Shown: positions 6,243-39,515 of the stretch, in pieces
How the letters are laid out: every line of letters begins with the position of its first letter
How positions within the stretch are numbered: the stretch's first letter is position 1
Origin: a virus
Strand: one strand, 5' to 3'
DNA length: 47,529 nucleotides
Virus record (IMG/VR): IMGVR_UViG_3300019889_000021
Span: 1-47,529 of that record
Notes under the pieces: model-generated
The model's database searches: none
What the model was told of the DNA's origin: nothing
The model's input: the letters and a program-made list of their open reading frames with translations, nothing else
Program-made: the position numbers and the translations under genes

Positions 6243-6261
6243 CATTCATTTGCCCCACAAT

Positions 6262-6277
6262 TCGAACACATGTTTCT
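6262..6277 (+). promoter_or_regulatory. LexA/SOS-box-like site before the LexA-like gene
   Basis: TCGAACACATGTTTCT matches 10 of the 12 defined positions of the actinobacterial SOS box TCGAAC-N4-GTTYGA. It lies about 45 bases upstream of the LexA-like start and overlaps a possible promoter (TTGCCC at 6250-6255, TTCTAT at 6274-6279, 18-base spacer). Confidence 0.45.
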
Positions 6278-6322
6278 ATCGTTAGGCAGGCGCAGGTCGC
6301 AGCCGCGGGGAGGCGGAACAGC

Positions 6323-6547
6323 ATGGGCGAGTCGCGTGAATGGCGCAGACAGAAGATCGCCTACTTCGTCGGCGACTACTATGCGCAGCACGGCGTCGGC
6401 CCCACCATGCGGGAGATCGCCGACGGATGCGGCTACGCCTCCACCGCCGGGGTCCACCGCCACCTGGAAATCCTGGCCGCGCGTGGGGAGCTGGACCGGC
6501 GACCGCACACGCGCCGCGCCTACCAGCCCGCCGGCCGGGATGCCTGA
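6323..6547 (+). CDS. LexA-type winged-helix DNA-binding protein without protease domain
   Basis: A 74-residue protein preceded by a GGGGAGG ribosome site. Residues 8-60 (KIAYFVGDYYAQHGVGPTMREIADGCGYAS...VHRHLEILAARGEL) match the N-terminal DNA-binding domain of LexA, including the PTxREIA signature. The LexA autoprotease domain is absent, so it could bind LexA-like sites but could not be cleaved by RecA-stimulated autolysis. An SOS-box-like sequence sits in its own upstream region. Possible roles are a competitor of host LexA or a small phage repressor. Isolated in its own short transcription unit. Confidence 0.72.
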   Translation: MGESREWRRQKIAYFVGDYYAQHGVGPTMREIADGCGYASTAGVHRHLEILAARGELDRRPHTRRAYQPAGRDA

Positions 6548-6560
6548 CCCCGCGCAGACC

Positions 6561-6601
6561 GCGCCCCCTCGCATCCGGCTCCCCGGACGAGGGGGCGCTT
6601 C
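6561..6601. terminator. Bidirectional hairpin terminator
   Basis: An 11-bp perfect stem (GCGCCCCCTCG against CGAGGGGGCGC) lies between the converging LexA-like gene and the minus-strand gene ending at 6603. The loop holds a further TCCGG/CCGGA pairing. Confidence 0.7.
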
Positions 6602-6602
6602 G

Positions 6603-6815
6603 TCATGCCTGCTCCCGCTTGCGGCGGGCTTCGAGGATGACGTCACGGTCCGGCCGTTCAGGGAGCTTGGCGCCGGGCTCGCGGAGATACCAGGCGATCA
6701 GCTCGCGGATCACTGCCGCGCGCTCGGTGTCCAGGCTCTTGGCTCCGGCGTCGAAGTCGTACCAGTCGTCGCCGATGCGGATCTGTCGGGCGGGTGTCTT
6801 CGGCGCGTTCGGCAT
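6603..6815 (-). CDS. Ribbon-helix-helix-like DNA-binding protein
   Basis: A 70-residue leftward gene. I start at the ATG giving MPNAPKTPAR because longer forms read through the operator array. Residues 10-45 have the form of an Arc/CopG-type ribbon-helix-helix protein: a strand RQIRIGDDWYDF, then two helices (AKSLDTERAAVIRELIAWYLRE). The upstream region carries four copies of a palindrome (6832-6937), and dimeric ribbon-helix-helix proteins bind such symmetric repeats, so it is the natural candidate to bind them and control itself and the divergent gene at 6958. An antitoxin-like role is possible but no toxin partner is recognised. Confidence 0.6.
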   Translation of the reverse strand: MPNAPKTPARQIRIGDDWYDFDAGAKSLDTERAAVIRELIAWYLREPGAKLPERPDRDVILEARRKREQA

Positions 6816-6831
6816 GCGCGAACTGTATGTC

Positions 6832-6937
6832 GGTGTAGCTACGCGGTCCATAGCTGATCTCCATTCGGTGTAGCTACAGATTCTTTGGCGAACCCCTTGC
6901 GGTGTAGCTACACCTGAGGATACGGTGTAGCTACACC
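6832..6937. promoter_or_regulatory. Operator array: four copies of GGTGTAGCTAC(ACC)
   Basis: Copies start at 6832, 6867, 6901 and 6924. The last two are the full 14-bp palindrome GGTGTAGCTACACC; the first two keep 11 and 12 bases of it. A possible rightward promoter (TTGCGG 6897-6902, TACGGT 6921-6926, 18-base spacer) contains copy 3 in its spacer and copy 4 over its -10, an arrangement suited to repression. The array sits in the divergent region between the ribbon-helix-helix gene and the gene at 6958. Confidence 0.75.
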
Positions 6938-6957
6938 CAGACGCAAGGGGAGGAACC

Positions 6958-7191
6958 GTGAAGACCATCGCCCGTAACCGCACCAAGCTGATAGCAGAGC
7001 TGCAGGCCAAGCTCACCGTGTGCCGCATGTACGACCGCGACAGCGGCCACCTGGTGCCCACAGACCCGGCACACGCCTGGCGCGCCCTGAGCGCCAGCCA
7101 CCACGCCCGACTCGTGGAGAGCGCCGACGGGACGAAGTACACCGTCCACGTCCACTCGAACCTCTGGTACGACCTGCGCGCCGCCGACTAG
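6958..7191 (+). CDS. Small protein of unknown function under the operator array
   Basis: A 77-residue protein starting at GTG after GGGGAGGAACC. It is basic at the N-terminus and contains a short beta-type segment (RLVESADGTKYTVHVHSNLWYDL) near the end. I do not recognise the family. It is transcribed divergently from the ribbon-helix-helix gene and its promoter overlaps two palindromes, so it should be tightly regulated. It is followed by two small hairpins. Confidence 0.6.
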   Translation: MKTIARNRTKLIAELQAKLTVCRMYDRDSGHLVPTDPAHAWRALSASHHARLVESADGTKYTVHVHSNLWYDLRAAD

Positions 7192-7195
7192 CCGA

Positions 7196-7233
7196 AACGC
7201 CTTCGGGCGTCCGTCCGGGGTCCCGCCCGGACG
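7196..7233 (+). terminator. Tandem hairpins after the operator-controlled gene
   Basis: A 5-bp stem with a TTCG loop (ACGCC/GGCGT) is followed by an 8-bp stem (CGTCCGGG 7212-7219 with CCCGGACG 7226-7233). They lie just after the stop at 7191. Confidence 0.5.
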
Positions 7234-7255
7234 CTGACGAGGCAGGGAGAAGACC

Positions 7256-7477
7256 ATGACCTACAACCAGGCGCTGTCTGAGGCCAAGGGCAACATTGGG
7301 CATTGCAGCGACGCCGCCGAGATGGCCGCGTTCTGCGACGGACCCCTCCAGACCCTCGTGGGCGCCGTCTCTCCGAAGCTCGTTTGGGAAGGCGCCCAGA
7401 AGTCCGGGGTGACGACCAGGGAACTCGCGGCCCTGTGCCGCAACGCGCTCGCCGTCTCCGACCTCCAGTGGCTGTGA
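7256..7477 (+). CDS. Small protein of unknown function
   Basis: A 73-residue, mostly helical protein; the ATG follows a GCAGGGAGA ribosome site. The C-terminal part (WEGAQKSGVTTRELAALCRNALAVSDLQWL) could be a small helical DNA-binding unit, but no clear helix-turn-helix is present. Neighbours are other small accessory genes. Function unknown. Confidence 0.55.
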   Translation: MTYNQALSEAKGNIGHCSDAAEMAAFCDGPLQTLVGAVSPKLVWEGAQKSGVTTRELAALCRNALAVSDLQWL

Positions 7478-7565
7478 CCGTAGCCCCACCCGCCCCGTGC
7501 CAGACTGCACCCAGGTCCTGCCGCACACATCCCCCCGGCGGCAGGGCCGCTCATGGGAGGGAACC

Positions 7566-7919
7566 ATGACTGTCGATCTCCTGGCCTTCTTGCGCGCCCG
7601 CCTCGAGGAGGACGCGGCGGCGGCAGCCGAGATGGCCGGGAACCGGGAGTGGCCGGCCGACTGCGGCGATGTGCACGACGTGTCGATCCAAACGACCGGT
7701 GGATGGACGTTCACATCCGAGCGGCTCCTAGCCGAGGTCGAAGCCAAGCGCGGAATGATCACGCAGTACGAGAACGTGAGCAAGCTCGTCAATGAGCCCA
7801 TCCCCACGGACCATCACTCGGCCTCCCACATCGAGCAGTGGGCCCTGTACGACGTCCTGCGACGGCTCGCCGTGCCCCACGCCAGCCACCCCGACTACCG
7901 GGAGAAATGGCGCCTCTAG
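7566..7919 (+). CDS. DUF6221-like small protein
   Basis: A 117-residue protein starting at ATG after a GGAGGGAACC site. The beginning (MTVDLLAFLRARLEEDAAAA) and the central phrase LLAEVEAKRGMI are typical of a small family very common in Streptomyces chromosomes and mobile elements. Acidic N-terminus, Trp-rich centre, no membrane segment. The biochemical role of the family is unknown to me. Confidence 0.65.
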   Translation: MTVDLLAFLRARLEEDAAAAAEMAGNREWPADCGDVHDVSIQTTGGWTFTSERLLAEVEAKRGMITQYENVSKLVNEPIPTDHHSASHIEQWALYDVLRRLAVPHASHPDYREKWRL

Positions 7920-7996
7920 GCCGCGAGTACGGCGCGCACGTACACGGCGCGCAGCCGCTCGTACTCCGCCCGCTCGAGGGGCGTCAGGAGCCAGCG

Positions 7997-8548
7997 TCAC
8001 TCTCGCATCTCGGCCAGCTTGGGGCGAGTCCATCGCCCCCTGTGCGGACGTTTGATCCCTGCGGCCCGCAACCGGGCGCTGAGCTCAGCCCTGTACTCGC
8101 GTTCGCACTCCCGGCAGACCCGCTCCCCGTGGCCCCCGGTCCTCGTGTTCTCGGGCGTGAACTCATGATCCTTGGGGCAATGGGTTTTCCGCACGTTCTT
8201 ACCTATCAACGTGTGCCTCGATCGGCGGCCGTTCTCGCCGTTGGTAACCGCTTCAAGGTGATGGGGATTGATGCACCGTCGATGCAGGCAGTCCAACTCG
8301 CCGCCGCACATCAAGTCTCGGTTGTGGCAAGTGTGATCCACCACCAGGCCGCTGGGGATCGGCCCCACCATCAACTCGTAGGCAACTCGGTGCACGAGAC
8401 GAGTCCGGCCAGCGATTCCCATTGAGCCGTAGCCGTCATCCTTGCGGACGTGGCCGGTCCATATGATGCAGCCAGATCGTCCGGCGACTGCCTTGCCGTA
8501 GAGCCTGTCGATCACTGGCCCAGTGCTAGATATGGCATGATCCCGCAT
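7997..8548 (-). CDS. HNH endonuclease (homing type)
   Basis: A 183-residue leftward gene. The HNH core is CLHRRCINPHHLEAVTNGENGRR, preceded by VVDHTC (first His) and a Cys pair that may bind zinc. N-terminal part CIIWTGHVRKDDGYG resembles intron- or phage-type HNH_3 enzymes. A second cluster (HCPKDHEF...RVCRECEREYR) looks like a zinc finger. The gene runs against its neighbours and has visibly lower GC than them, both suggesting insertion as a selfish homing element. Confidence 0.85.
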   Translation of the reverse strand: MRDHAISSTGPVIDRLYGKAVAGRSGCIIWTGHVRKDDGYGSMGIAGRTRLVHRVAYELMVGPIPSGLVVDHTCHNRDLMCGGELDCLHRRCINPHHLEAVTNGENGRRSRHTLIGKNVRKTHCPKDHEFTPENTRTGGHGERVCRECEREYRAELSARLRAAGIKRPHRGRWTRPKLAEMRE

Positions 8549-8656
8549 AGCCGTTCTCCTGGTCTGATCAGGGGATTCGGTCAGGCCCTATTGGGTGTTC
8601 GCGCACCCGGTGGGGCCGCCCTTGCTGGCTTCAGGATACCGGTGGATGCCGACAGC

Positions 8657-8833
8657 TCAGGCGGCTTCGATCACGTCGAGACGCCGTGCTTCATCCCATT
8701 GCACGAGGAGCCTCTCGTAGCTGACTCCCGGCTCCTCGCCCCGCGCCCGCGCATCCACATATCGCCGTATCGCGGCGTTCGCCATGTCCGAAAGGCGCAC
8801 GACGCCTCCAGGGTCAGGGGAGGTCGAGGACAT
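8657..8833 (-). CDS. Small protein of unknown function
   Basis: A 58-residue leftward gene starting at ATG. Helical and charged (VRLSDMANAAIRRYVDARARGEE, then YERLLVQWDEARRLDVIE). The first helix could belong to a tiny DNA-binding or ribbon-helix-helix-like protein, but no family is recognised. It lies between the HNH gene and the flavoprotein gene on the same strand. Confidence 0.4.
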   Translation of the reverse strand: MSSTSPDPGGVVRLSDMANAAIRRYVDARARGEEPGVSYERLLVQWDEARRLDVIEAA

Positions 8834-8898
8834 GATCCGAATTCTACGGGGCGTGCAGGGGGCGCGAACCGGGCCGCGGCGAAGGGGCATATGCAACT

Positions 8899-9438
8899 TC
8901 AGCGGGCGACGCGGCCCGCTGCCTCGAGCGCCAGGTGCCAGGGGAACTTTGTCGGGTCGCCCTTGCCCGGCTCGTTCGGCACGAAGCCACCTTCGCCGTA
9001 GAGCACCGTCACGCCTGCGACGCGGAGCGTCGCGACCGACTGCTCGAACTGCGGATGGGCGACGAACGCCTGATTCACGCACGGCATGGTGACGAGGGGG
9101 ATGCCCTTGCCGATGCCCTCGGCCACTACCCCCACCACGAAGTGGTCCGTGATGCCCAGCGCCCATTGGTTGATCGTGTTGAACGTCGCCGGGGCCACCA
9201 CGATCACGTCCGCCGGCGGCCACACATCCGGCTGCCCCGGGAGCTTGTACTCGGAGCGCACCGGATGCCCGGTCAGCTCGGCGAGCCCCGCGAGGTCTGC
9301 CTCGAGCCAGCGCGCGGCGGTCGGCGTCAACCCCAGGCACACATCCCAGCCGTCCGCCTGCGCCCGCTTGATGACGCCGTCGACATGGAACACGGCCGGG
9401 GCGGCGCAACCGAACAGATACATCACACGCGAGGTCAT
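8899..9438 (-). CDS. Flavoprotein (HFCD/PPC-decarboxylase-like fold)
   Basis: A 179-residue leftward gene. I choose the ATG giving MTSRVMYLFGCAAPAVF, since this is the first strand of the flavodoxin-like fold. The signature VVAPATFNTINQWALGI matches the FMN-binding PAxxNT motif of this family, and VTMPCVNQAFVAHPQFEQSV corresponds to the substrate-clamp region. Members use FMN and act on Cys-type carboxylates or other substrates; the substrate here is unknown. It is divergent from an XRE-TPR regulator, a pairing I know from Streptomyces chromosomes, so it looks like lysogenic-conversion cargo. Confidence 0.8.
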   Translation of the reverse strand: MTSRVMYLFGCAAPAVFHVDGVIKRAQADGWDVCLGLTPTAARWLEADLAGLAELTGHPVRSEYKLPGQPDVWPPADVIVVAPATFNTINQWALGITDHFVVGVVAEGIGKGIPLVTMPCVNQAFVAHPQFEQSVATLRVAGVTVLYGEGGFVPNEPGKGDPTKFPWHLALEAAGRVAR

Positions 9439-9557
9439 GCGGGCTATCCCACCACATGACGTCGCCCCCACCGCCAAGGGCCGTGGGGGCGAACGCAGTT
9501 CCGCCGCTGTCCAGCGGGGGTACGGTTCCAGATGTCAAGTCAGGAACAGGACCCATT

Positions 9558-10745
9558 ATGCCCACCACAGAACCAGAGCACATCGGAAGCCGCATCGTCT
9601 ACTGGCGCAAGCGGCGCCGCCTGAAGACCGAGGAACTCGCCCGCCGCGCCGGGGTGTCGGGCAGCCTGCTGTACAAAGTGCAGGCCGGAGGCAGGCCCGC
9701 GTCTGCGGGACTGGTCGCGGCCGTGGCGCGCGAGCTCGGAGTAGACGTGGAAACCCTGACCGGCCAGCCCTATGTGACCGAGCTCCGGCAAGACCGGCTT
9801 GACGAACTGATCCACCCCATCCGGGAAGCGATGGATTTGTACGACCTCGGCGATGACCCGGTACTCGAGGTGCGGCCGGCCGAGCAGCTCATCGCGGCGG
9901 CTGACGACCTGTGCCGTCAGGTCCGCGCCACGAAGCTGCACGCCGCCGCCGCCGAATTGCCGGATGTGGTGGCCGAGCTGACCACCGCCGCCTACCGCAC
10001 CCCGTCGTCCGAGCTGTGGGCGGCACTGGGCTCCACCTACCGCACCGCCCACGACATCGCCGTCAAGCTCAGCTACAGCGACCTGTCCACCGTCGCCCTG
10101 GACCGGATGGCGTGGGCCGCCGAGCGCGCCTCGGACCCGCTGCTCGCGGCGGTCCGCCAGTACATGCGGGCGCTGGTCTACTTCCGGGAGGGCGAGACGA
10201 CGATCGGGCTGCGTCTCGTCGACTCCGGTCATGGCCACCTGCAGGCGGCCGGTGACGGCCGTGACGCCCTCGCCGTGGCCGGGCAGCTGCACCTCGGGGC
10301 CGCCGTCCTGCACGCGCGCGCCCACGACCAGGGCGGCATCGACCTCCACCTCGGCGAGGCCGAGCAACTCGCGATGCGCACCGGTGAAGCGGGCCGCGTC
10401 CTGTGGCTGTCGTTCGGGCCGACGAACGTCCGCCTCCACCGCACCTCCACGATGATCGAGATGCGGCAGTACGGGGAGGCCGTCGTGGAAGCCGGCCGGG
10501 TTCGCTTCCCGGCGCTCTGGCCGCACACTTCCCGCCAGGCGCACCACCTCGTACACCGCGCATACGCGCTGATGGAGACCAAGCAGTACCCGGATGCGCT
10601 GGAGCAGATGCTCGAGGCCCGACGTATCGCACCTGAGCAGACCCGCTATTACGCGCCCGCCCGGGAGACCATCAACGCTCTCGTCAGGCAGGCGCGCCGT
10701 ACCCCGGACACGCTCACGCATCTCGCCGACTGGGTCGGCATGTAA
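9558..10745 (+). CDS. XRE-family regulator with TPR-like C-terminus
   Basis: A 395-residue protein. The ATG giving MPTTEPEHIGSRIVYWR is chosen as the usual start just before the helix-turn-helix. Residues 8-62 (RIVYWRKRRRLKTEELARRAGVSGSLLYKVQAGGRPAS...VARELGVD) are an XRE domain. The rest is a long helical TPR-like array (RASDPLLAAVRQYMRALVYFREG, ALEQMLEARRI). This is a very common Streptomyces regulator type; helical arrays often sense peptides or small ligands. Two tiny genes follow and the flavoprotein gene is divergent. Confidence 0.85.
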   Translation: MPTTEPEHIGSRIVYWRKRRRLKTEELARRAGVSGSLLYKVQAGGRPASAGLVAAVARELGVDVETLTGQPYVTELRQDRLDELIHPIREAMDLYDLGDDPVLEVRPAEQLIAAADDLCRQVRATKLHAAAAELPDVVAELTTAAYRTPSSELWAALGSTYRTAHDIAVKLSYSDLSTVALDRMAWAAERASDPLLAAVRQYMRALVYFREGETTIGLRLVDSGHGHLQAAGDGRDALAVAGQLHLGAAVLHARAHDQGGIDLHLGEAEQLAMRTGEAGRVLWLSFGPTNVRLHRTSTMIEMRQYGEAVVEAGRVRFPALWPHTSRQAHHLVHRAYALMETKQYPDALEQMLEARRIAPEQTRYYAPARETINALVRQARRTPDTLTHLADWVGM

Positions 10746-10846
10746 AGCCTTGGCCAACGCTGGCACAGAACTGTGCCAGTAACTGCCCCCGCGCGTCGGC
10801 AGGCTTGTCGTCACGAGATCAACTGACGACGACGGCGGGGGCCGAG

Positions 10847-11011
10847 ATGCTGACGATGAAGATCTACCGGGTGGACCCGGGCACCATGCAGCGGACGCCA
10901 CTGCGCCTGGTGTCCGTTGGGCCCGGCGGCAAGAGCGATCACTTCGCCCTGTCGTGCGCGTGGCCGCCCTGCCGCTGCGCCCGCTGTCATATCGCCAGGG
11001 GCCTCCGGTGA
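10847..11011 (+). CDS. Small Cys-rich protein following the XRE-TPR regulator
   Basis: A 54-residue protein from the ATG at MLTMKIYRVD; an upstream TTG in frame would add 14 residues. The end has a Cys cluster (CAWPPCRCARCHIARGLR) that may bind metal. The stop overlaps the GTG of the next gene, which supports both being real. Such tiny companions are often found after XRE-TPR genes in Streptomyces. Function unknown. Confidence 0.55.
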   Translation: MLTMKIYRVDPGTMQRTPLRLVSVGPGGKSDHFALSCAWPPCRCARCHIARGLR

Positions 11012-11208
11012 GCGGCCGTCTGTGCTGCCACTGCCAGGAGCCCGGCACCGACGAGCGGCCCCTCGAGCTGGCGGGCGAGCACCACGCCGCGTCGGGCGCG
11101 GGCGCTACGTTCTGGCGGCACCGCGACTGCCCCAAGCCTCACCCCCTCGCGTCGCAGCGAATAGCGGCGATAGCCGAGGCCGTCGCCCGCAAGACCCGCA
11201 CCCGCTGA
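11008..11208 (+). CDS. Small zinc-ribbon-like protein
   Basis: A 66-residue protein starting at the GTG overlapping the previous stop (VSGRLCCHCQEPG). A CCHC cluster, a His pair (GEHHAASGAG) and WRHRDCPKP could form a zinc site. Basic helical C-terminus (RIAAIAEAVARKTRTR). It probably belongs to the XRE-TPR unit. Function unknown. Confidence 0.55.
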   Translation: MSGRLCCHCQEPGTDERPLELAGEHHAASGAGATFWRHRDCPKPHPLASQRIAAIAEAVARKTRTR

Positions 11209-11248
11209 AAGCTCCCGCCCCGGTTCTTGTACGGCGCCGGGGTGGGCC

Positions 11249-11290
11249 GCTCGCCCGCTGCGACGGCGGAACCACCAGCAGCGGGCGAGC
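11249..11290 (+). terminator. Hairpin terminator
   Basis: A perfect 13-bp stem (GCTCGCCCGCTGC against GCAGCGGGCGAGC) with a 16-base loop lies 40 bases after the XRE-TPR unit. Confidence 0.7.
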
Positions 11291-11297
11291 CTAGACC

Positions 11298-11336
11298 CCC
11301 GCCCGCCGGATCGGACCCCCGCCACCGGCGGGCGGG
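11298..11336. terminator. Hairpin terminator between converging genes
   Basis: A perfect 12-bp stem (CCCGCCCGCCGG against CCGGCGGGCGGG) with a 15-base loop ends two bases before the minus-strand XRE gene. With the preceding hairpin it separates the two converging units. Confidence 0.65.
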
Positions 11337-11337
11337 C

Positions 11338-11571
11338 TCAGGTGAAGAGATCGGTTACCGAGAGGCGAAGGGCGCGGGCGAGCTTGAGCACGAGGCTCAT
11401 CTTCGGATCCGTCCGGCCGTTCTCGATGAGGCTGACGGTGCGCCGGTCGCAGCCGGCCTTCTCGGCAAGATCTTCTTGGCTGAGGTTGGCGTGCAGGCGT
11501 GCTTCGCGGATGCGGTCGCCGACGGTGGCAAGTCGGGCGGAGACCCATGGGGGCTGTTCAGCGGGTGGCAC
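11338..11571 (-). CDS. XRE-family repressor-like protein
   Basis: A 77-residue leftward gene. Residues 18-72 (GDRIREARLHANLSQEDLAEKAGCDRRTVSLIENGRTDPKMSLVLKLARALRLSVTDLF) form a complete XRE/Cro helix-turn-helix with the classical SQEDLAEKAG and SLIENG elements. No C-terminal sensor domain. Its upstream region carries a 13-bp inverted repeat and, further on, a 16-bp palindrome, both candidate binding sites. It may control the divergent gene at 11799 or contribute to immunity next to the integrase. Confidence 0.82.
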   Translation of the reverse strand: MPPAEQPPWVSARLATVGDRIREARLHANLSQEDLAEKAGCDRRTVSLIENGRTDPKMSLVLKLARALRLSVTDLFT

Positions 11572-11591
11572 CCTGCTGACACTCTAGCGTC

Positions 11592-11636
11592 CAAGATCGT
11601 TTGTCTGTACGGGAAGTATCACAACAAATGATCTTG
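11592..11636. promoter_or_regulatory. Inverted repeat and possible promoter of the minus-strand XRE gene
   Basis: CAAGATCGTTTGT (11592-11604) and ACAAATGATCTTG (11624-11636) match at 12 of 13 positions as an inverted repeat. On the minus strand TTGTGA and AACGAT, 17 bases apart, could be the promoter inside it, which fits autorepression. Confidence 0.5.
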
Positions 11637-11694
11637 CGAGAACGGCGGGCACTTCACTATGTCCACGTATCCATGTCCCGGAAGTACGACTTAA

Positions 11695-11710
11695 TCACTC
11701 GATCGAGTGA
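11695..11710. promoter_or_regulatory. 16-bp palindromic operator candidate
   Basis: TCACTCGATCGAGTGA is a perfect palindrome lying just before a TTGACC hexamer (11717-11722) that could be the -35 of the rightward gene at 11799. It sits between the divergent XRE gene and that gene. Confidence 0.5.
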
Positions 11711-11798
11711 GTGTCGTTTGACCCGTTGCAGCGTTGGACATCTCAGCGAGACTTGCCCAGGTTACGTGCGTGGTGGCGACGTGCAGGAGGTACAGACG

Positions 11799-12056
11799 AT
11801 GCTCGATGACAACGAGATCCTTTCGCTCTACCCGTGGGATGCCGGGAGCTGCTTCCGATGCGCGCGCACCGGCGTGGACACCACCTGCCTCACGCAGTTC
11901 ACGCCCGAGTCGAACGGGGACTACGACGTCCGTGCCTGCCACGCCTGCGTGCTCGATCTTGAGGCCATGAGCCGGCAGGCGGCCGAGCGCAAAGGCGTGC
12001 CCTATGAGCTGGGTCGACTGGGGGAGCAAGCCCACCGACCGCTGACGCGTGACTGA
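11799..12056 (+). CDS. Small Cys-rich protein divergent from the XRE repressor
   Basis: An 85-residue protein. The ATG at MLDDNEILSLYPWDAG is preceded by AGGAGG with an eight-base spacer, so longer upstream frames are rejected. SCFRCARTG and ACHACVLD form two CxxC pairs suited to zinc binding. The region upstream has the palindrome at 11695-11710. Similar small proteins accompany XRE regulators in actinomycetes. Function unknown. Confidence 0.65.
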   Translation: MLDDNEILSLYPWDAGSCFRCARTGVDTTCLTQFTPESNGDYDVRACHACVLDLEAMSRQAAERKGVPYELGRLGEQAHRPLTRD

Positions 12057-12373
12057 GCGTTCGTGCAGCTCGGAGACCTGATTCTGGGGACACCATGGGG
12101 ATTGGCGACGAGCTGGGGATGCCGGGGGGATGGCCAGATCAGACACTCAACCCAACTCAAGCGAACGCAAGGGCAGTCAAGCTCAGCAGGTCAACGCGTT
12201 AGAGCGGCGATTACGGAACGTAGGCGCAGGTGGGCGGAAGGAGGCACGCACAACACGCACTTCTGGCCTACACATGGGGTCCAAAGGTATCTGACCTGCG
12301 ATTACTCTCCGCATTCCAAGATCAAATACGGCTCTGGGGACAATCTGGGGACAGTCGCGAAGGGGAGAGGATC
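12057..12373. other. Putative phage attachment region (attP) with repeated TCTGGGGACA
   Basis: This 317-base gap lies directly beyond the 3' end of the integrase gene, where tyrosine-integrase phages usually keep attP. TCTGGGGACA occurs three times (12083-12092, 12333-12342, 12344-12353), and related CTGGGGA words occur nearby; these could be arm-type integrase sites. I could not recognise a tRNA 3' end or define the core. No gene is seen here. Confidence 0.45.
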
Positions 12374-13699
12374 TCAGGTCGCCTCATCCGCCTCAATGGC
12401 GGGGGCATCGTCAGCGCCGGGGGCCAGCCACGCGCCGAGCGCCTTCATCCCCATCTTCCCAGACTTCGGCAGGAAGTGGACATAGGTCCGCAGTGTGAAC
12501 GCTGGATCCGCATGCCCGAGCCACGCGGCCAACTGCGCGATCGTCTCGCCGGCCTGCAGCACGACCGACGCGAAGGTGTGCCGCAGCACATGGAAGCCGT
12601 CCTCCCGCGGCAACTCCCACTTCACCCGCCGCAGCGCCCGCTTGCCCTCTCGAGGGATAAGCACGACCTGCGGGGCCGGGATGACTCCGGCCTTGACGAG
12701 CGCAGGCTTCCACTGTTCCGCATTGAACGCGGAGCGGGTGATGGCCCCGCCGCTCTTGCTGTGGGTGTGCGTGGTCGTGACCAGCAGCCGCACGGTGACG
12801 AGCGGACGGTCCTCCCAGCGCAGGTTCGGCCGGGCTGTATCGATCCACGGCAGCGTCACGTAAACCGGCTCGAACGCGTTCATGTACGCCTTGACGGCGG
12901 CAACCAACTCCGCTGGGCACGGCGCGTCGCGCTCCTTGTCGCCCTTCGGCAGCTTGAACGCGAGCCGCCCGCCGACCTTCACCACCTGCCGCGCCACGTG
13001 GATCACGTCGCCGTCGATGTCGTCGGGGGAGAAGCCGAACGCCTCGCCCTGGCGCAGGCCGGAGCCGACGGCCTCATCCACCAGAATCCGGTAGCGCGCA
13101 TCGAGGGCGGCCCGCACCGCCGTCACGGTCTCCCTCGGCCACGCCTTCGCCTTCGACTCCGGCGGCCGGGGCCGCTCAAGGTCGGAGTCCCGGAATGGAT
13201 TCGACGGGATCCGCCTTGCCTTGTGTGCCGACTGCATGATCGAGGAGAAGTGGGCCCATACCGGCACGAGCGTGCCTACGTCGATCTTCCGCTCAGCCTG
13301 CGTCACCCACCACTTGATCTGATCGGGACCTATTCGGTTCAAAGAGAGGTGGCCCATGTGCGGCAGGATGTGGCGGAAGATCCGCGGGCGCATCGATTCC
13401 CTCGTGCCGGGCGACTTCCGAAGGTGCGGCCACCACGTGTCCTCGACGTACTCCCGCAGCGTGAGGTCACCGTCGCGCGGGTCGTAGAACGTGCCACGCT
13501 TGGAGTCGGTCGCCGCGGCCTTCAGCCACGCCTTCGCGCTGGCTTCCTTCACGAACGACCGGTCCCGCACGCCGGGGATGTTCTTCACGCGCCAGCGCTT
13601 TCCTGCGCCGTGGCGGTCGGTCTTCTCCCGCGTCGGCTTGCCGGTAGCAGGATCGGGGGGGCCCTTCTTGTACCAGCGGTCCTCGACGTATCCGGCCAT
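12374..13699 (-). CDS. int: Tyrosine-recombinase integrase
   Basis: A 441-residue leftward gene. A basic N-terminal arm-binding part (to about residue 75) is followed by a SAM-like core-binding domain (about 80-170, LTLREYVEDTWWPHL) and the catalytic domain. Catalytic residues visible are R216 (SGLRQGEA), H370 and R373 (HVLRHTF), H396 (LGH) and nucleophile Y406 (RTYVHF). All are present, so the enzyme should be active. It would recombine attP with a host attB, with the excisionase-like protein at 15214 steering excision. The stop borders the putative attP. Confidence 0.95.
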   Translation of the reverse strand: MAGYVEDRWYKKGPPDPATGKPTREKTDRHGAGKRWRVKNIPGVRDRSFVKEASAKAWLKAAATDSKRGTFYDPRDGDLTLREYVEDTWWPHLRKSPGTRESMRPRIFRHILPHMGHLSLNRIGPDQIKWWVTQAERKIDVGTLVPVWAHFSSIMQSAHKARRIPSNPFRDSDLERPRPPESKAKAWPRETVTAVRAALDARYRILVDEAVGSGLRQGEAFGFSPDDIDGDVIHVARQVVKVGGRLAFKLPKGDKERDAPCPAELVAAVKAYMNAFEPVYVTLPWIDTARPNLRWEDRPLVTVRLLVTTTHTHSKSGGAITRSAFNAEQWKPALVKAGVIPAPQVVLIPREGKRALRRVKWELPREDGFHVLRHTFASVVLQAGETIAQLAAWLGHADPAFTLRTYVHFLPKSGKMGMKALGAWLAPGADDAPAIEADEAT

Positions 13700-33633: not shown

Positions 33634-34359
33634 ATGGCCCGGACTGACCATACCGCCATGCCCCCCGTGGCGATCAAGAGCCCTGCACCGACATCACACC
33701 AAAGCGTGCTCATCACGCTCGCTGTGATCGCCGCCGTGGCGACCATCGCGCTCACCGGCATCGCGTTCTGGCTGAGCTACGAATCACTTCACGATCTTGC
33801 CGCGAGTCACCACCTGCACGGCCCGCGCGCCTGGGCCTGGCCTGCCACCCTCGACAGCTTCATCATCATCGGCGAGACCCTCACCCTGCGCGCCAGCCTC
33901 GCCCGCCGCATCGACTGGGCGGCCATCGCGCTGACCGCGGCCGGCAGCGTCGGATCCATCGTGCTGAACATCGCCTCCGTGGGTGACACCGACGCCCTGA
34001 CACGCGTCGTGGCGGCCGTGCCGCCCGTCGCCGCGCTCCTCGCCTTCGGTGCGCTCATGCGCCAGCTGCACGGCGCCCTCGCAGCCCGGGTCGCAACGCC
34101 CGTCACGGATGCCATCGTGCCGCGCAACGCCGAGCTACTGCCGATCGTGCCGCCCGCAACACCCCCCGTGCCACCGCCCCCGCCCGACGGCGAGACCCTC
34201 ACCACGAGCGAGGTCGCCGAGCGGCTCAACGTGGCACCCGCAACGGTCCGCACCTGGGTACACCGTCGCAAGCTCACCCCCATCGCCACGGACCCCGACG
34301 GCGGCCACCTCTTCGCCACGGCCGCCGTTGCGGCGCTCAAGGACGAGGCAGCGAAGTGA
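33634..34359 (+). CDS. DUF2637-like membrane protein with C-terminal MerR-type HTH
   Basis: A 241-residue protein. Four membrane helices (about residues 25-48, 65-85, 93-110 and 120-142) match DUF2637 proteins of Streptomyces plasmids and integrative elements, where such proteins (SpdB-related) accompany transfer genes; SHHLHGPRAWAWPATLDSFIIIGE is characteristic. After a Pro-rich linker, residues 187-241 (TLTTSEVAERLNVAPATVRTWVHRRKL) form a MerR-type helix-turn-helix. The stop overlaps the FtsK start. It may join membrane and DNA during transfer or packaging. Confidence 0.82.
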   Translation: MARTDHTAMPPVAIKSPAPTSHQSVLITLAVIAAVATIALTGIAFWLSYESLHDLAASHHLHGPRAWAWPATLDSFIIIGETLTLRASLARRIDWAAIALTAAGSVGSIVLNIASVGDTDALTRVVAAVPPVAALLAFGALMRQLHGALAARVATPVTDAIVPRNAELLPIVPPATPPVPPPPPDGETLTTSEVAERLNVAPATVRTWVHRRKLTPIATDPDGGHLFATAAVAALKDEAAK

Positions 34360-36485
34360 CCGCCCCCGTCAAGGTCAACGGGCATGCCCGCATCGACCTG
34401 GTGAAGATCGCCGAACCGAGGCCTGTCACGACCGAGACGCCGGTCGAGGCGGTTCCGCGTCAGCGGCTGCGGCGTACCCGGCGGGTGTTCACCGTCTCCC
34501 GAGCCGTGGTCACCGACGACAGGACGCGCACCGTGTGCCGCGCGGTCGCCCGGCACGGGCTGTACGCGGCAGGCGGGACGCGCATCGTGTGGCGACGCGC
34601 GTGGGACTCCCGTACCCCCGCCCGCTATGAGCGCATGATCCGTACCGCTGAGGCGGCCGGGAACTCGGAGCTGGCGCAGGAGTGGGAGGAGCGGGCGAAC
34701 CGCTTCCGCACCGAGCGCCACCGGCGGCGCATGGACATGCTCAAGTCGCCCGAGCAGCTCGCGTTGTCCGTCAGGAACGGATCGGCCGTGTTCGTCGGCG
34801 CGATGCTGGCGCTGGGCATCTTCCTGGCCGTAGCGGAAGAGGACGCCGGCCAGGTGCTGGCGCCGTGGAAGGCCTTCGCCGATGCGGTGCGCCTGCTGGC
34901 CGCCATCGCCGCCGTCGTGTGGGGGCTGCGGGTGCTGCTGTTGGCCGCCGCCGTGTGCGCCTCGCTGCTGGCCCTGTGGAGCGTCGGCCGCCAGCAGCAG
35001 ACCGCCCCCGCCTGGGCGCTGCCGCCGGCGCAGCGCCGCGGTGACGACGAGCCCATCACCCCGCACAAGGTGGTTCTCGCCCTTCGCCACCTGGGCATCG
35101 CCCCGCTGAAGAAGGCGATCCTCAGCATGGAGGACGGCGGTGGCGCGATGCTGTCGCCGATCGTCCTGGCCGGCTGCGGCGTCGAGCTCGACGTGTCCCT
35201 GCCCCTGGAGGTCTCCACCAAGGAGGTCCTGGCCAGGCGGCGCAAGCTCGCGGAGAACCTCGGCCGGCACGAGCACGAGGTGTACCTCAGCGTCGCGCCC
35301 GCCGCGCGCACCGTGCGGATGTGGATCGCCGACTCCGGCGCCCTGGACGAGCCCGCCGGGCCATCACCGCTGGTCACCGACCCCGACATCCGCGCCGACT
35401 ACAAGACGGGCCGCGCCCCGTGGGGGCCAGACCTGCGCGGCGACGCCGCCACGATCTCCCTCTACCAGCGGATGCTGCTCATCACCGGCGCATCCAACCA
35501 GGGCAAGACCGCCAGCCTCCGCACCCTCGCGCTGTGGCTGGCGTTCGATCCGACCGTGGAGTTGTGGATCGGCGATCTCAAGGGGATCGGCGACTGGCGG
35601 ATGTTCCTCGGTATCGCCACCGTGCTGATCGAAGGGCCCACTGACGAGCATGTCGCGCGGGTCACGGAGACGGTGGAGCGCGCAGTGGCGGAGATGGAGC
35701 GCCGCCTGCAGGCCCCGCCCGGCACCAAGTGGGATCCGCTGATCGTCATCGTCGACGAGGCGCAGATGGCGTTCATGTGCCCCGCGAAGGACGAGTTCGG
35801 GAAGCCCTACGGCGGGAAGAAGAACACCTCCCGCTACTACATGGCCTGCCGGAAGCTCCACAATCAGGGGCGGGTCGTGGACGTGCTGCTGTGGCAGGGC
35901 ACCCAGGATCCGACCGACGAGAACCTGCCCAAGCTGGTCCGCAACGGCGCCCACATCCGCGCCTCGCTGGCCCTGGGCAGCGAGGCCCAGTCCGAGATGG
36001 CGCTCGGCGACCAGGCCGCGGCGGGCGGCGCGGCCCCGCACCTGCTGCGCCAGGGCCTCGACAAGGGCCGCCTGGTAGTCGCCGGTGACCTGGGCGGACT
36101 CCTCAAGCCCGGACAGGCATCGATCACGATCAGCACCCACTTCGTGGACACCGATCCGGCCCACGAGGTCGCCGAGCGGATCCGTCAGCGCCGCAACCCC
36201 GTCGCCACCTCGACGGCCGCGAGCAGCCCGCCCGAGCCCCGCGATCACCTGTCGGACCTCCGCGACGTCCTCGGCGCCGAGGAGCGGGTGCGCACCACGG
36301 AGGTCATTCACCGGCTGAAGACCCTCGACCACGCCGCCTATCGCGACTGGGACGGCGCCCGTCTCAAGCGCGAACTCATCGAGGCCGGCGAGGACACAGA
36401 CAAGTACACCGGCTACCCGGTGATCAAGCGTCAACGGGTCCTCGACGCCCTCGCCAGACGCGATCAGGACGCCACCGACGACTAG
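34356..36485 (+). CDS. FtsK/SpoIIIE-type DNA translocase (TraB-like)
   Basis: A 709-residue protein starting at a GTGA overlap. Two membrane helices lie at about residues 145-165 and 178-208. The motor has Walker A GASNQGKT (378-385) and Walker B LIVIVDEAQ with D467. A C-terminal winged helix (VRTTEVIHRLKTLDHAAYRDWDGARLKRELIEAG) occupies the position of the FtsK gamma domain that recognises short DNA sites. Known relatives: TraB of Streptomyces plasmids, which moves double-stranded DNA between mycelial cells, and FtsK. Directly downstream are long inverted repeats. Confidence 0.88.
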   Translation: MTAPVKVNGHARIDLVKIAEPRPVTTETPVEAVPRQRLRRTRRVFTVSRAVVTDDRTRTVCRAVARHGLYAAGGTRIVWRRAWDSRTPARYERMIRTAEAAGNSELAQEWEERANRFRTERHRRRMDMLKSPEQLALSVRNGSAVFVGAMLALGIFLAVAEEDAGQVLAPWKAFADAVRLLAAIAAVVWGLRVLLLAAAVCASLLALWSVGRQQQTAPAWALPPAQRRGDDEPITPHKVVLALRHLGIAPLKKAILSMEDGGGAMLSPIVLAGCGVELDVSLPLEVSTKEVLARRRKLAENLGRHEHEVYLSVAPAARTVRMWIADSGALDEPAGPSPLVTDPDIRADYKTGRAPWGPDLRGDAATISLYQRMLLITGASNQGKTASLRTLALWLAFDPTVELWIGDLKGIGDWRMFLGIATVLIEGPTDEHVARVTETVERAVAEMERRLQAPPGTKWDPLIVIVDEAQMAFMCPAKDEFGKPYGGKKNTSRYYMACRKLHNQGRVVDVLLWQGTQDPTDENLPKLVRNGAHIRASLALGSEAQSEMALGDQAAAGGAAPHLLRQGLDKGRLVVAGDLGGLLKPGQASITISTHFVDTDPAHEVAERIRQRRNPVATSTAASSPPEPRDHLSDLRDVLGAEERVRTTEVIHRLKTLDHAAYRDWDGARLKRELIEAGEDTDKYTGYPVIKRQRVLDALARRDQDATDD

Positions 36486-36529
36486 GTGACCCGGCGGTGG
36501 GCCGGTGACTTTCCACCAACCGGGTCACC
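36485..36529 (+). repeat. Long hairpin after the FtsK gene
   Basis: GGTGACCCGG (36485-36494) and CCGGGTCACC (36520-36529) form a perfect 10-bp stem, with an inner GGTGG/CCACC pairing. It begins at the last base of the FtsK stop. It may be a terminator or a recognition site for the translocase. Confidence 0.55.
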
Positions 36530-36569
36530 AGACCACTCCACCGGGACTGACCTGCACGAACGCGCCTTT

Positions 36570-36649
36570 GGTGAGGCGGTGAGGCCGCCGGCCGCACCGC
36601 CCCGGAAACCCCGGAATCACGGGTCGGTGGCGATCAACACCGCCTCACC
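36570..36649 (+). repeat. Second long inverted repeat after the FtsK gene
   Basis: GGTGAGGCGGT (36570-36580) and ACCGCCTCACC (36639-36649) are perfect 11-bp complements 58 bases apart. Between them lie further C/G-rich pairings. It ends 24 bases before the next start. Confidence 0.5.
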
Positions 36650-36673
36650 CACCAGCCAGACAAGGAGACCGAG

Positions 36674-37009
36674 ATGCCCAAGACCCACTACGTGTTCACA
36701 CCCGCGGAGAAGCGTCGGCTGCGTAAGTCGTTCGGCGGCGGCCTGCGCCTGGCGATAGCGGGCGGTGGCCCGGACGACGCGGACGAAGCCGAGTGCAACG
36801 CCATCATCGCTGCGGGGTACCGGCGGGGCCGCCCCGAAGTTGAGGCGATGCAGCGCGAGGTTGACAGTGCGAGGAGCGCGGTCGTCGGCGCGAAGACCAA
36901 GGTCCGCATCGCCCGCGGCGACGACCGCAAGGCCGCCCGGCAGGCACTGCGCGACGCCGAGCAACACCAACGGACCGTGCAGCGCGAAGCCCGCAAGCTC
37001 GGCAACTGA
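36674..37009 (+). CDS. Basic helical protein of unknown function
   Basis: A 111-residue protein with AAGGAGACC before the ATG. Starts MPKTHYVFTPAEKRRLRKSFGGGLRLAIAGGG, then long charged helices (EVEAMQREVDSARSAVVGAKTKVRIARGDDRKAARQALRDAEQHQRTVQREARKL). Very basic, so nucleic-acid binding is plausible. Located in the transfer-like block; no family recognised. Confidence 0.6.
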   Translation: MPKTHYVFTPAEKRRLRKSFGGGLRLAIAGGGPDDADEAECNAIIAAGYRRGRPEVEAMQREVDSARSAVVGAKTKVRIARGDDRKAARQALRDAEQHQRTVQREARKLGN

Positions 37010-37027
37010 CCCCACAGGAGATCACTC

Positions 37028-37240
37028 ATGCCCAGCTACCGCACCCAGACCGGCTACACCGTCAAGGTCATTGGCGGCGTCTTCAAGTCGCACGTCTCCT
37101 GCTACGGCTGCAACCGCGGCTGGCGCGTCAGCGAGAAGGACGCGCACCACAAGGCCAACCGGCACGCCAACGGCTGCCGCGCAGTCCCCGCCAATCAGCG
37201 CCCCGCCGGCGGCGGCGTGATCGGCCGCGCCCGCCGCTGA
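37028..37240 (+). CDS. Small zinc-finger protein, mobile-element-transfer-like
   Basis: A 70-residue protein with CAGGAGATCACTC before the ATG. It has CYGCNRGWRVSEKDAHHKANRHANGC, i.e. CxxC followed by HxANRHAxxC, the arrangement of the small mobile element transfer proteins found beside traB in Streptomyces integrative elements. It shares length and position with them, but the match is only a pattern match. Confidence 0.6.
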   Translation: MPSYRTQTGYTVKVIGGVFKSHVSCYGCNRGWRVSEKDAHHKANRHANGCRAVPANQRPAGGGVIGRARR

Positions 37241-37319
37241 CGGCTGCCCGCGCAGCTCGGCCCGACCGAGCTGCAAGGGGAGCTGGCACAGCGCCAGCCC
37301 GACACAGGAGGAGACCGCC
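37241..37319 (+). promoter_or_regulatory. Structured leader 1 (two-hairpin element)
   Basis: Hairpin H1: GCAGCTCGG 37252-37260 with CCGAGCTGC 37266-37274. Hairpin H2: GCTGG 37282-37286 with CCAGC 37294-37298, loop CACAGCG. An alternative helix joins CGGCT 37241-37245 to AGCTG 37281-37285. CCCGAC and an AGGAG ribosome site follow before the ATG at 37320. Same design as leaders 2 and 3. Confidence 0.6.
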
Positions 37320-37484
37320 ATGTTCAAGCGAGCCAGCACCGAGACCCGCAGCGAGCTGAAGGAAGCGCGCGCCGACCTCGAGCGCGTCGGCAAGCGGGAC
37401 CGCTCCGAGACCGACGACTTCATCGCCGCAAACCGACGCGTCATCGCCGCCGAGCAGGCCGCCCGCGACAGCCGCCACAGCTGA
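37320..37484 (+). CDS. Small MFKRAS protein 1
   Basis: A 54-residue protein, AGGAGGAG before the ATG. It begins MFKRASTETR, the same opening as the gene at 37563, then is a charged helix (SELKEARADLERVGKRDRSETDDFIAANRRVIAAEQAARDS). The shared opening and the shared leader show that the two genes arose by duplication and then diverged. Function unknown. Confidence 0.6.
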   Translation: MFKRASTETRSELKEARADLERVGKRDRSETDDFIAANRRVIAAEQAARDSRHS

Positions 37485-37562
37485 CCGGCTGCCTGCGGTC
37501 CCGGCCATGCGCCGGGGCCGTGGAGAGCCGGCACAGTCCCGGCCCGACGATAGGAGACCGCC
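37485..37562 (+). promoter_or_regulatory. Structured leader 2 (two-hairpin element)
   Basis: H1: CGGTCCCGGC 37496-37505 with GCCGGGGCCG 37511-37520 (one G-U). H2: GCCGG 37527-37531 with CCGGC 37539-37543, loop CACAGTC. Alternative helix: CCGGCT 37485-37490 with AGCCGG 37526-37531. CCCGAC and TAGGAG precede the ATG at 37563. The two helices using 37527-37531 exclude each other. Confidence 0.62.
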
Positions 37563-37745
37563 ATGTTCAAGCGAGCCAGCAGCGAATCCCGGTATGCCCG
37601 CCAACGGCGTGCGGAGAGCGAAGCCTTTAAGGCGAGGCAGGCCGAGGCCTTCAAGGACGCTGAGCGCGACAGCAAGGAACGCACAGCCCGCTTCTGGTCC
37701 GACTACGAGGCCACGAACGGCCCCGGCAGCGTCGATTGGAGCTGA
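37563..37745 (+). CDS. Small MFKRAS protein 2
   Basis: A 60-residue protein with AGGAG before the ATG, beginning MFKRASSESR like its neighbour. The rest is a very charged helix (YARQRRAESEAFKARQAEAFKDAERDSKERTARFWSDYEATN). Basic and acidic residues alternate as in a single long helix or coiled coil. Function unknown. Confidence 0.6.
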   Translation: MFKRASSESRYARQRRAESEAFKARQAEAFKDAERDSKERTARFWSDYEATNGPGSVDWS

Positions 37746-37826
37746 CCGGCTGCCCGATCCGCCGGTCTGGAAACCGGCGGTGAGGAGAGCCGGCCAACAG
37801 GCCGAGCCCGACGAGAGGAGAACGCC
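37746..37826 (+). promoter_or_regulatory. Structured leader 3 (two-hairpin element)
   Basis: H1: CCGCCGGT 37759-37766 with ACCGGCGG 37773-37780. H2: CGGCC 37791-37795 with GGCCG 37800-37804, loop AACA. Alternative helix: CCGGCT 37746-37751 with AGCCGG 37788-37793. CCCGAC and GAGGAG precede the ATG at 37827. Same layout as leaders 1 and 2. Confidence 0.6.
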
Positions 37827-37970
37827 ATGTCGTTCGAGATTTATGTTCCGCCGAAGCGTAAGCCGAACGGCTACGCCTGCTACCGGTGCGGCCGGCCCGC
37901 CACACGGTGGATCACCGTCGGCATGTTCGGTGCCCGCCGCATGCCCGTCTGCGACAGCAACCGCCACTGA
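37827..37970 (+). CDS. Tiny zinc-ribbon protein
   Basis: A 47-residue protein with GAGGAGAACGCC before the ATG. Basic N-terminus (YVPPKRKPNGYACYRCGRPATRW) and a later Cys (MPVCDSNRH) suggest a zinc knuckle. It is the third gene under a repeated two-hairpin leader but its product is unrelated to the MFKRAS proteins. Function unknown. Confidence 0.6.
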   Translation: MSFEIYVPPKRKPNGYACYRCGRPATRWITVGMFGARRMPVCDSNRH

Positions 37971-37985
37971 GGAGGACTGACCACC

Positions 37986-38480
37986 ATGACCACCCTCAAA
38001 GACCCCGAGACCGTCTACTTCGCCGCCGACGAGGCCGCCGGCCAGATCATCGAGCAGCTCCGCGCACCCGACACCACCCGCGCCGACCGGGCCCGTCTGC
38101 TGCACGAGCTCGCCGATCTCGAAGAGCGCATGGGCGTCGCCCAGGCAGCCGCCTGGCCCGAAGACCAGACCCCCGACGAGGACGGGTTCACGCCGCTGCA
38201 GTCCCGCACTCTCTCTGCGCTGACTCTGCATTACCTGGCCGCAGCCGAGGACGCCGCCAGCCGCGGGCCACGGAAGCGGGCCCCGCACAGCTGGGAGGTC
38301 GCCGCCGGACCGCTCCTCGACGAGTACGCCGCCGCCGGCGGCCCCGGGGAACGCGCCGTGCTGCTGGAGCTCCTGCACGCAGCGCTCTACCCGCTCATCG
38401 GCAACCACGCCGCCGAGGTCATCGAAACCCTCCGCCGCGCCTACCTCGACGCCGCCGACAAGACCACCAAGGAGGACTGA
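37986..38480 (+). CDS. Helical protein of unknown function
   Basis: A 164-residue all-helical protein (DPETVYFAADEAAGQIIEQLRAPDTTRADRARLLHELADLEERMG). No signal, membrane segment or motif. GAGGAGGACTGACCACC precedes the ATG. It precedes a Spd-like membrane protein and the two share a short gap, so they may act together. Confidence 0.6.
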   Translation: MTTLKDPETVYFAADEAAGQIIEQLRAPDTTRADRARLLHELADLEERMGVAQAAAWPEDQTPDEDGFTPLQSRTLSALTLHYLAAAEDAASRGPRKRAPHSWEVAAGPLLDEYAAAGGPGERAVLLELLHAALYPLIGNHAAEVIETLRRAYLDAADKTTKED

Positions 38481-38485
38481 CCGCC

Positions 38486-38944
38486 GTGACCTATCCGCCG
38501 CTGCCTGAGCCGTACCGCCGCGCCGAGGTGTCCCCGGCCGGGCAGCGGCAGCCCCTGCCCGGCTGGCCCGAGATGGAGCTGTACGAGCCCGCCCAGCCGC
38601 TGGCACCCGTGGAGGCGCGGCGCGTCGTGGGCTACGAGCGGTACGCCGGGATGCTCGTCCCCGTGTACGAGGCGCCGCCCGCGCCGTACCGCCCGCCCGA
38701 CCCACCGCCCTACGACCCGTGGCCGAAGCGGATCCTCGCCACCGGCGCCGCCTCCCCGCTCGTCGGCTGGGGCGGGGCGATGCTCTTCAACGCCCTGGCC
38801 GGCGCCGTCACCGCCCTAGCGCTGATCGTCACCGCGCTGATCCTCGCCAAGCTCAGCGGCGGACGGGGCCAGCGCGGCGGCGACACGTACAACACCCACG
38901 TCCACCAGAAGTGGTTCGGGCGCGCGCGTACCGACAACCAGTGA
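38486..38944 (+). CDS. Spd-like membrane protein of the transfer-like block
   Basis: A 152-residue protein starting at GTG with AAGGAGGACTGACC upstream. Long Pro/Tyr-rich N-terminus (PPLPEPYRR...YEAPPAPYRPPDPPPYDPWP), then two membrane helices (about residues 84-104 and 106-126) and a conserved-looking basic tail with HVHQKWFGRARTD. Streptomyces integrative elements encode similar small spread proteins with one or two spans. A role in spreading or in pore formation is possible. Confidence 0.6.
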   Translation: MTYPPLPEPYRRAEVSPAGQRQPLPGWPEMELYEPAQPLAPVEARRVVGYERYAGMLVPVYEAPPAPYRPPDPPPYDPWPKRILATGAASPLVGWGGAMLFNALAGAVTALALIVTALILAKLSGGRGQRGGDTYNTHVHQKWFGRARTDNQ

Positions 38945-39038: not shown

Positions 39039-39515
39039 ATGACGACAACTCGGATCGACACACAGCCGATGATCGGCGTCCGCCTGCAAAGCGTGATCAC
39101 TTCATACGGTGAGGGCCATCACGATGCCCCGAGCGGCGGCGCCCTGCTGGTGGACACCACCGCCTTACGCAACCCGCCCGACGACGAGGCCGTGCGCGAA
39201 CGGATGCTCCATGCGACCGGGCTGGACCCGGAGGTGCGCCAGTACGTGATGGACACCCCCGGCGCGCAGCAGCTGGTAGAGCGCGCGGCTGCTCAAGCTG
39301 CGATCCTCCTCGAGCTCGACAACCTCGCACGCTGGTCCGGCGTGCAGCGGCGCCGCTTCGACATCCACGTCCGGTGCGGGGGCGGCCGGCACCGCTCGGT
39401 CGCCGTAGCCGAAGAGATCGCCGTGCACCTGCGCGCACTCGGCATCGGGTGCGAGGTCGAGCACCGCCACATCAACAAGCCCATCCTGAGGGGCGGAACC
39501 CCAGGACCCGCTTGA
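39039..39515 (+). CDS. Stand-alone RapZ C-terminal-domain-like protein
   Basis: A 158-residue protein. It matches only the C-terminal half of RapZ: a tract ALLVDTTALRNPPDDEAVRERMLHATGLDPEVRQYVMDTPG corresponds to the DxRFLPNP...TGxDxxVxxYV region, and CGGGRHRSVAVAEEIAVHL (C113, H118, RSV at 119-121) to the GCTGGxHRSVxxxE loop; HRHINKPI ends it. The P-loop half of RapZ is absent. In bacteria this domain binds small RNAs and a metabolite; here its target is unknown. Confidence 0.8.
   Translation: MTTTRIDTQPMIGVRLQSVITSYGEGHHDAPSGGALLVDTTALRNPPDDEAVRERMLHATGLDPEVRQYVMDTPGAQQLVERAAAQAAILLELDNLARWSGVQRRRFDIHVRCGGGRHRSVAVAEEIAVHLRALGIGCEVEHRHINKPILRGGTPGPA

Follow-up and report, generated by a model that had tools for sequence, protein, structure and literature searches.

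A stop-codon-anchored intercistronic RNA element of Streptomyces conjugative elements, with two alternative folds that a terminating ribosome may set

The gaps in front of three consecutive small genes of the window (the entire stretch of 47,529 nucleotides that was analysed) carry copies of an element of about 65 nt, which begins at its 5' end with the UGA of the upstream gene and at its 3' end borders on the Shine-Dalgarno (SD) region of the next. These copies very probably belong to a real family acting at the RNA level, anchored on the stop codon and located between the cistrons of Streptomyces conjugative elements; the family, its fold, its covariation, its stop anchoring and its element context were each established computationally. 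We give a probability of roughly 0.5 to the reading that the leaders are intercistronic RNAs of TraB-type conjugative elements of the Streptomycetales, with a fold set by the ribosome at the upstream UGA.

The 47.5-kb IMG/VR record combines phage-like genes with a Streptomyces-type transfer module. Phage-like genes (endolysin, tail-fibre-like protein, tyrosine integrase) are found at 152 to 13,699 and the TraB/DUF2637 conjugative module at 33,634 to 36,485 of the one record, so that the window is possibly a phage/ICE hybrid or holds neighbouring elements. The TraB/FtsK-type translocase is the hallmark of the conjugative module bearing the elements. It is 52% identical, over 92%, to an FtsK/SpoIIIE protein of a Streptomyces plasmid, and no TraB homologue was found at E<=1e-5 among 50,697 phage records. 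The three copies sit in an operon of small genes downstream of the translocase gene, and the features of this region are as follows.

33,634 to 34,359, + strand: DUF2637 (membrane, Spd-like) protein with a C-terminal HTH (Pfam DUF2637, 3.8e-15; HTH_17, 1.1e-6)
34,356 to 36,485, + strand: TraB/FtsK-type DNA translocase (Pfam FtsK_SpoIIIE, 2.6e-6)
37,028 to 37,240, + strand: small gene (ORF) with a Cys-rich, zinc-ribbon-like product; its UGA at 37,238 to 37,240 opens copy A
37,236 to 37,300, + strand: element copy A (model R2, 72.4 bits, training copy; MFE folds)
Copy A helices: P0 37,236-37,239/37,289-37,292; P1 37,241-37,245/37,281-37,285; P2 37,252-37,260/37,266-37,274
Copy A alternative helix P3: 37,282-37,287/37,293-37,298, loop ACAGC
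37,306 to 37,313, + strand: SD AGGAGGAG of the gene at 37,320 (from the sequence)
37,320 to 37,484, + strand: gene for a 54-aa MFKRAS protein; its UGA at 37,482 to 37,484 opens copy B
37,480 to 37,545, + strand: element copy B (R2, 64.6 bits, training copy; folds)
Copy B helices: P0 37,480-37,483/37,534-37,537; P1 37,485-37,490/37,526-37,531; P2 (13 bp) 37,493-37,505/37,511-37,523
Copy B P3: 37,528-37,531/37,539-37,542, loop CACAGTC
37,552 to 37,556, + strand: SD AGGAG of the gene at 37,563 (from the sequence)
37,563 to 37,745, + strand: gene for a 60-aa MFKRAS protein; its UGA at 37,743 to 37,745 opens copy C
37,741 to 37,808, + strand: element copy C (R2, 57.8 bits, training copy; folds)
Copy C helices: P1 37,746-37,751/37,788-37,793; P2 37,759-37,766/37,773-37,780; P3 37,792-37,795/37,800-37,803, loop AACA
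37,815 to 37,820, + strand: SD GAGGAG of the gene at 37,827 (from the sequence)
37,827 to 37,970, + strand: 47-aa gene (ORF) after copy C, with a Cys-rich, zinc-ribbon-like product

The three gaps share the layout described in an earlier, sequence-only reading of this region: a CGGCT or CCGGCT start, a variable hairpin, AGCYGG, a short hairpin, CCCGAC and an AGGAG-type site. The strong variable hairpin has 9, 13 and 8 bp in the gaps 37,241 to 37,319, 37,485 to 37,562 and 37,746 to 37,826, respectively, and the second hairpin is GCUGGC-ACAGC-GCCAGC in copy A, CCGG-CACAGUC-CCGG in copy B and GGCC-AACA-GGCC in copy C. As also proposed, pairing between the CCGGCT start and AGCCGG is possible in each of the three copies, with a single G-U pair in copy A. 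The two-hairpin description holds in that both hairpins are present, but they do not stand side by side in the most stable fold, a single long interrupted hairpin made of the base helix (P0), P1 and P2; copy A alone among the three can also form P2 together with P3. That reading also placed the start of the element about 5 nt too late, missing the upstream stop codon (GC-UGA-CCGGCT), part of which is included in the base helix of copy A.

A covariance model built from the three window copies (R1) also gave matches in four relatives retrieved through TraB similarity, again in gaps between tiny genes: three times in L002, once strongly and once weakly (E 0.04) in L005, weakly in L006 (E 0.01), and in plasmid L008 (E 0.002). 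Since the matched gaps in these relatives lie upstream of traB, the element is not tied to one locus. A pattern drawn from the conserved arms, which included neither a stop nor a start codon, was found in 36 IMG/VR stretches and at least 119 genome stretches, and the matches with a strong fold were almost all in Streptomyces-type loci. A looser pattern, GGCTGCC..GAGCYGGC..CCCGAC, gave 59 matches in IMG/VR that were judged to be chance from their folds and model scores, and a strict pattern of copies B and C gave no match. The second model, R2, was made from a 40-sequence alignment (A2) and matched 78 of 296 genomes of the genus Streptomyces, 31 of 149 genomes of the order and 8 of 297 genomes of the class, counts that are lower bounds because of strict filters and the few candidates scored per genome. 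All eight class genomes fall within the Streptomyces order; as seven of them recur among the order genomes and the remaining one is the centre genome, there is no sign of the family outside the Streptomycetales.

BLAST with the consensus matched 15 Streptomyces plasmids and none of the 50,697 phage records, and direct BLAST of the window region against phages gave no match. The covariance search proposed earlier for actinophages and Streptomyces thus succeeded in Streptomyces genomes and plasmids, and the feature is one of plasmids and ICEs, not of actinophages. Of 20 chromosomal copies, 17 have a homologue of a conjugative-transfer (TraB, Spd), replication or integrase protein no more than 8 kb away, versus 0 of 20 control regions taken 400-500 kb off in the genomes concerned. 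Each element carries one to four copies. Rfam 15, at gathering thresholds, gave no match over the element in the window and 10 loci, and no described equivalent in Streptomyces elements was found in the literature searched, most subscription papers being outside its reach. The earlier suggestion of a cis-acting RNA family with a conserved fold is borne out, as a structured RNA present in roughly a quarter of the sampled genomes of the genus. It marks small-gene operons of conjugative elements, in which gene functions are mostly unknown, and provides a signature by which such elements can be found. Between tiny genes of L007 (5893 to 5990 and 6173 to 6260) there are also strong intergenic inverted repeats that do not match the family.

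The position of the element was determined from 88 distinct copies, after removal of duplicates from overlapping collections. A UGA is present at the fixed offset in 86 of them, and in 84 this UGA ends an open frame of 30 codons or more; all 86 anchored copies use UGA, compared with 76% of stops in those loci. In 85 copies a start codon with an SD follows 10-34 nt past the element, at a median distance of 19 nt (interquartile range 15-21), after GC-rich linkers, and the downstream proteins are small (median 61 aa). The elements are strictly intercistronic and sense-oriented. Because R2 includes the UGA columns, this anchoring could be circular, and matches to the pattern without a stop requirement served as the control. 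Among these pattern-only matches, a stop codon lies 0-2 nt before the arm in 38 of 41 whose inner stem has 7 bp or more versus 5 of 112 with shorter stems, and an SD and start follow in 38 of 41 versus 6 of 112. Among annotated plasmids, the element UGA is exactly the end of the upstream CDS in all four examined records with an adjacent CDS (L270, L272, L273 and L275). The tie to the upstream stop is thus stricter than that to the downstream start, so that the name "leader" used so far is only half the description. Ahead of the next annotated gene, some of these plasmids carry an additional hairpin.

Covariation, which was only suggestive from three copies, was computed on 87 distinct aligned rows. 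In the inner stem, P2, both sides had changed at 8 of 8 pairs (0 of 500 shuffles) and in P3 at 4 of 5 pairs (at most 1 of 500 shuffles), both well beyond shuffles, with the caveat that fitting the alignments to the model biases them toward the structure of that model, and that related sequences inflate shuffle tests. Over the whole structure, 97.8% of cells are paired, versus 84.6% in shuffles and at most 62% when the alignment is slid. P2 is free in sequence, and its apical loop has no conserved sequence or length. The arms of P1, GGCTGCC and GGGGAGCC, are near-invariant, with 96.8% of cells paired and little covariation, barely above shuffles; such invariance could mean recognition by protein or of DNA instead of pairing.

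Two of the bases in the base helix (NCUG/CAGN) belong to the stop codon, and position 1 of the helix forms a Watson-Crick pair with the N of ACAGN in 44 of 82 copies, versus 30.7 when shuffled. This covariation is almost wholly at the one position, and as 32 of the 82 copies are unpaired at this outer pair the base helix is suggestive only; it may pair the stop codon itself. P1 and P3 are competing helices with one strand common to both, and in part of the family both arms of P3 are one base shorter. The two exclusive folds that had been proposed thus each have some evidence of selection. For a bistable cis-acting switch both helices would have to be selected; P3 covaries, but P1 is near-invariant and the base helix covaries mainly at one position.

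Tandem duplication with drift had been named as an explanation that would undo the pairing argument. Copies sharing a locus have a mean identity of 0.66, below the 0.72 of copies from different loci, and for just 1 of 34 copies is the most similar copy found at the same locus; recent tandem duplication was rejected on these results. The element also stays largely apart from the downstream gene, as the three window copies had suggested: 87 listed copies, including 3 duplicates, precede 52 downstream protein families. The nearest leader has a homologous downstream protein in 13 of the 87 (expected 4) and a homologous upstream protein in 17 (expected 2.4), and this weak tendency toward homologous neighbours led us to reject a leader that travels strictly with one gene. 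One protein family (LTxGEKAKVxWYxARMAKRG; DUF6257 in L008) comes after the element in 22 of the 87 listed copies, among them those of L237, L243, L245, L253 and L258.

In the free RNA, the predicted minimum free energy fold of most copies listed consists of the base helix and P1, followed by a G.G mismatch, 3 bp, a small internal loop and P2, with the UG of the stop codon paired at a median probability of 0.96. A terminating ribosome at a UGA reaches roughly nt 1-15. When these nucleotides were blocked, P2 stayed and P3 was predicted to replace the base helix and P1 in nearly all copies listed. From these folds we infer ribosome-driven switching and any output that it may have. A ribosome with the UGA in its A site would cover about nt 1-15, that is, the 5' strand of the base helix and of P1, stopping short of P2, and the freed 3' strand would fold into the alternative hairpin P3 (stem-ACAGN-stem). 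The element would in this way sense whether translation of the upstream gene runs to completion, and the readout would set the fate of the intercistronic RNA. That the terminating ribosome sets the fold, with consequences for the junction RNA, we hold at even odds or slightly less.

The likeliest outputs would be protection or processing of the junction (access of a nuclease, Rho or RNase III) or coupled re-initiation, and not the hiding of the downstream ribosome site. Mean predicted SD access is 0.47 in one fold and 0.48 in the other and changes by more than 0.2 in only 12 of 85 copies, in both directions. A simple attenuator of the ribosome site is therefore unsupported, contrary to what had been suggested, and the switch, if it matters, does not appear to act by uncovering that site; an attenuator or riboswitch masking the SD or start is likewise not supported by this predicted equality. 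Termination control had been put forward for testing, and no intrinsic terminator (GC-rich hairpin with a T tract) was found at 36,400 to 38,600 of the window, nor was a sigma-70 promoter found in the region of the copies. Counting against the proposal, homologues of the window gene at 37,563 in the related elements L004 and L005 have no element in front. We tentatively propose, as a possibility well short of even, a cis-acting RNA of a new class, namely an intercistronic switch with two states, serving as an exchangeable linker across Streptomyces conjugative elements, whose input would be termination at the stop in its own base helix and whose output would be the fate of the intergenic message. 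A stop codon inside a conserved regulatory helix would, if true, be an unusual coupling of neighbouring genes, and the element is potentially a compact part for polycistronic design in actinomycetes.

A hairpin for RNase III-type processing or mRNA stability would also account for an interrupted duplex of about 21 bp (two A-form turns) after a stop codon, cut or protecting the upstream message, with the alternation of P1 and P3 being incidental. Its long interrupted stem with small internal loops, the free sequence of P2, the strictly intercistronic and sense-oriented placement and the lack of a terminator or promoter in the region all agree with this, but the near-invariant GGCTGCC and GGGGAGCC arms and the ACAG exceed the sequence constraint that such a hairpin needs, and P3 covariation is left unexplained; we regard it as unlikely, at somewhat better than one chance in five. 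The same invariant arms and ACAG could be read by a host or element-encoded RNA-binding protein (or an sRNA) for concerted control of the small-gene operon, in keeping with invariant paired and loop positions beside a P2 of free sequence and with the regulon-like one to four copies per element. A fixed offset on the stop codon is not required by such a site, which we consider rather improbable.

It is improbable, at about one chance in ten, that the hairpin is a re-initiation device placing the upstream stop beside the downstream ribosome site so that terminating ribosomes restart: the stop codon does lie in the base helix with the SD near its 3' base, but the spacing from element to start is loose, genes with an ordinary strong SD have no need of it, and predicted SD access is unchanged. 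An element acting as DNA, either an attC-like recombination boundary for cassette shuffling or a clt-like recognition site for TraB, would suit a position between interchangeable small genes of many families near TraB. The fixed stop offset, constant sense orientation and proximity to the ribosome site point instead to mRNA, copies within one element are not alike, and the integron attC core (RYYYAAC / GTTRRRY) is absent from the arms GGCTGCC and GGGGAGCC, making this explanation very improbable. Finally, the UGA directly 5' of the hairpin recalls readthrough or a selenocysteine (SECIS-like) hairpin, which is hardly credible given that the frame from stop to start is near random (35/28/22) and not preserved and that the apical loop has no conserved sequence or length.

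Several known systems resemble the element in part. The REP/BIME palindromes of enterobacteria are repeated intercistronic hairpins just after stop codons that can affect mRNA stability; the Streptomyces element is of this kind in its placement, but differs in its alternative fold, invariant arms, stop in the base helix, nearby ribosome site and occurrence in conjugative elements. The intercistronic RNase III sites of phage T7 are interrupted stems of about two turns between cistrons of polycistronic mRNA, as is predicted here, whereas the element has extra sequence conservation and P3. Translation-coupled attenuators and leader switches have mutually exclusive helices as alternatives for a ribosome to select. 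The element has such helices too, but its upstream gene is a real preceding cistron and no leader peptide as such, and no masking of the SD or the start is predicted.

Among elements already described, the closest analogues are the SAS and ESAS of cluster K mycobacteriophages, repeated intergenic elements before small genes of unrelated families (Pope et al. 2011, PMC3203893). These share with the element an inverted repeat with a variable spacer upstream of a ribosome binding motif, and downstream genes that are unrelated. For ESAS, the authors saw no support for RNA pairing in the mismatches of the repeats and preferred DNA binding as the explanation (PMC3203893); the Streptomyces element, in contrast, covaries, includes the upstream stop codon and sits in plasmids and ICEs. 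R2 had no match up to E=1 in the 30-kb stretches at 30-60 kb of phages Anaya and Pixie, and the 13-bp SAS consensus GGGATAGGAGCCC before the start codon is absent from the gaps of all copies, which end in SD variants such as GAGAGGAGCCC.

Three further features of the window were observed. Directly after the traB stop, the region 36,486 to 36,670 contains long inverted repeats and GGTGAGG / TTTCCACC motifs, as do the regions after traB in L004 to L006, and is a candidate transfer (clt-like) site. A RapZ C-terminal domain match (Pfam PapZ_C, 7.3e-21) at 39,039 to 39,515 adjoins the transfer operon. Between small genes at 7190 to 7251 (+ strand) there is a match to a type II hammerhead ribozyme, with 41.2 bits against a gathering score of 37.
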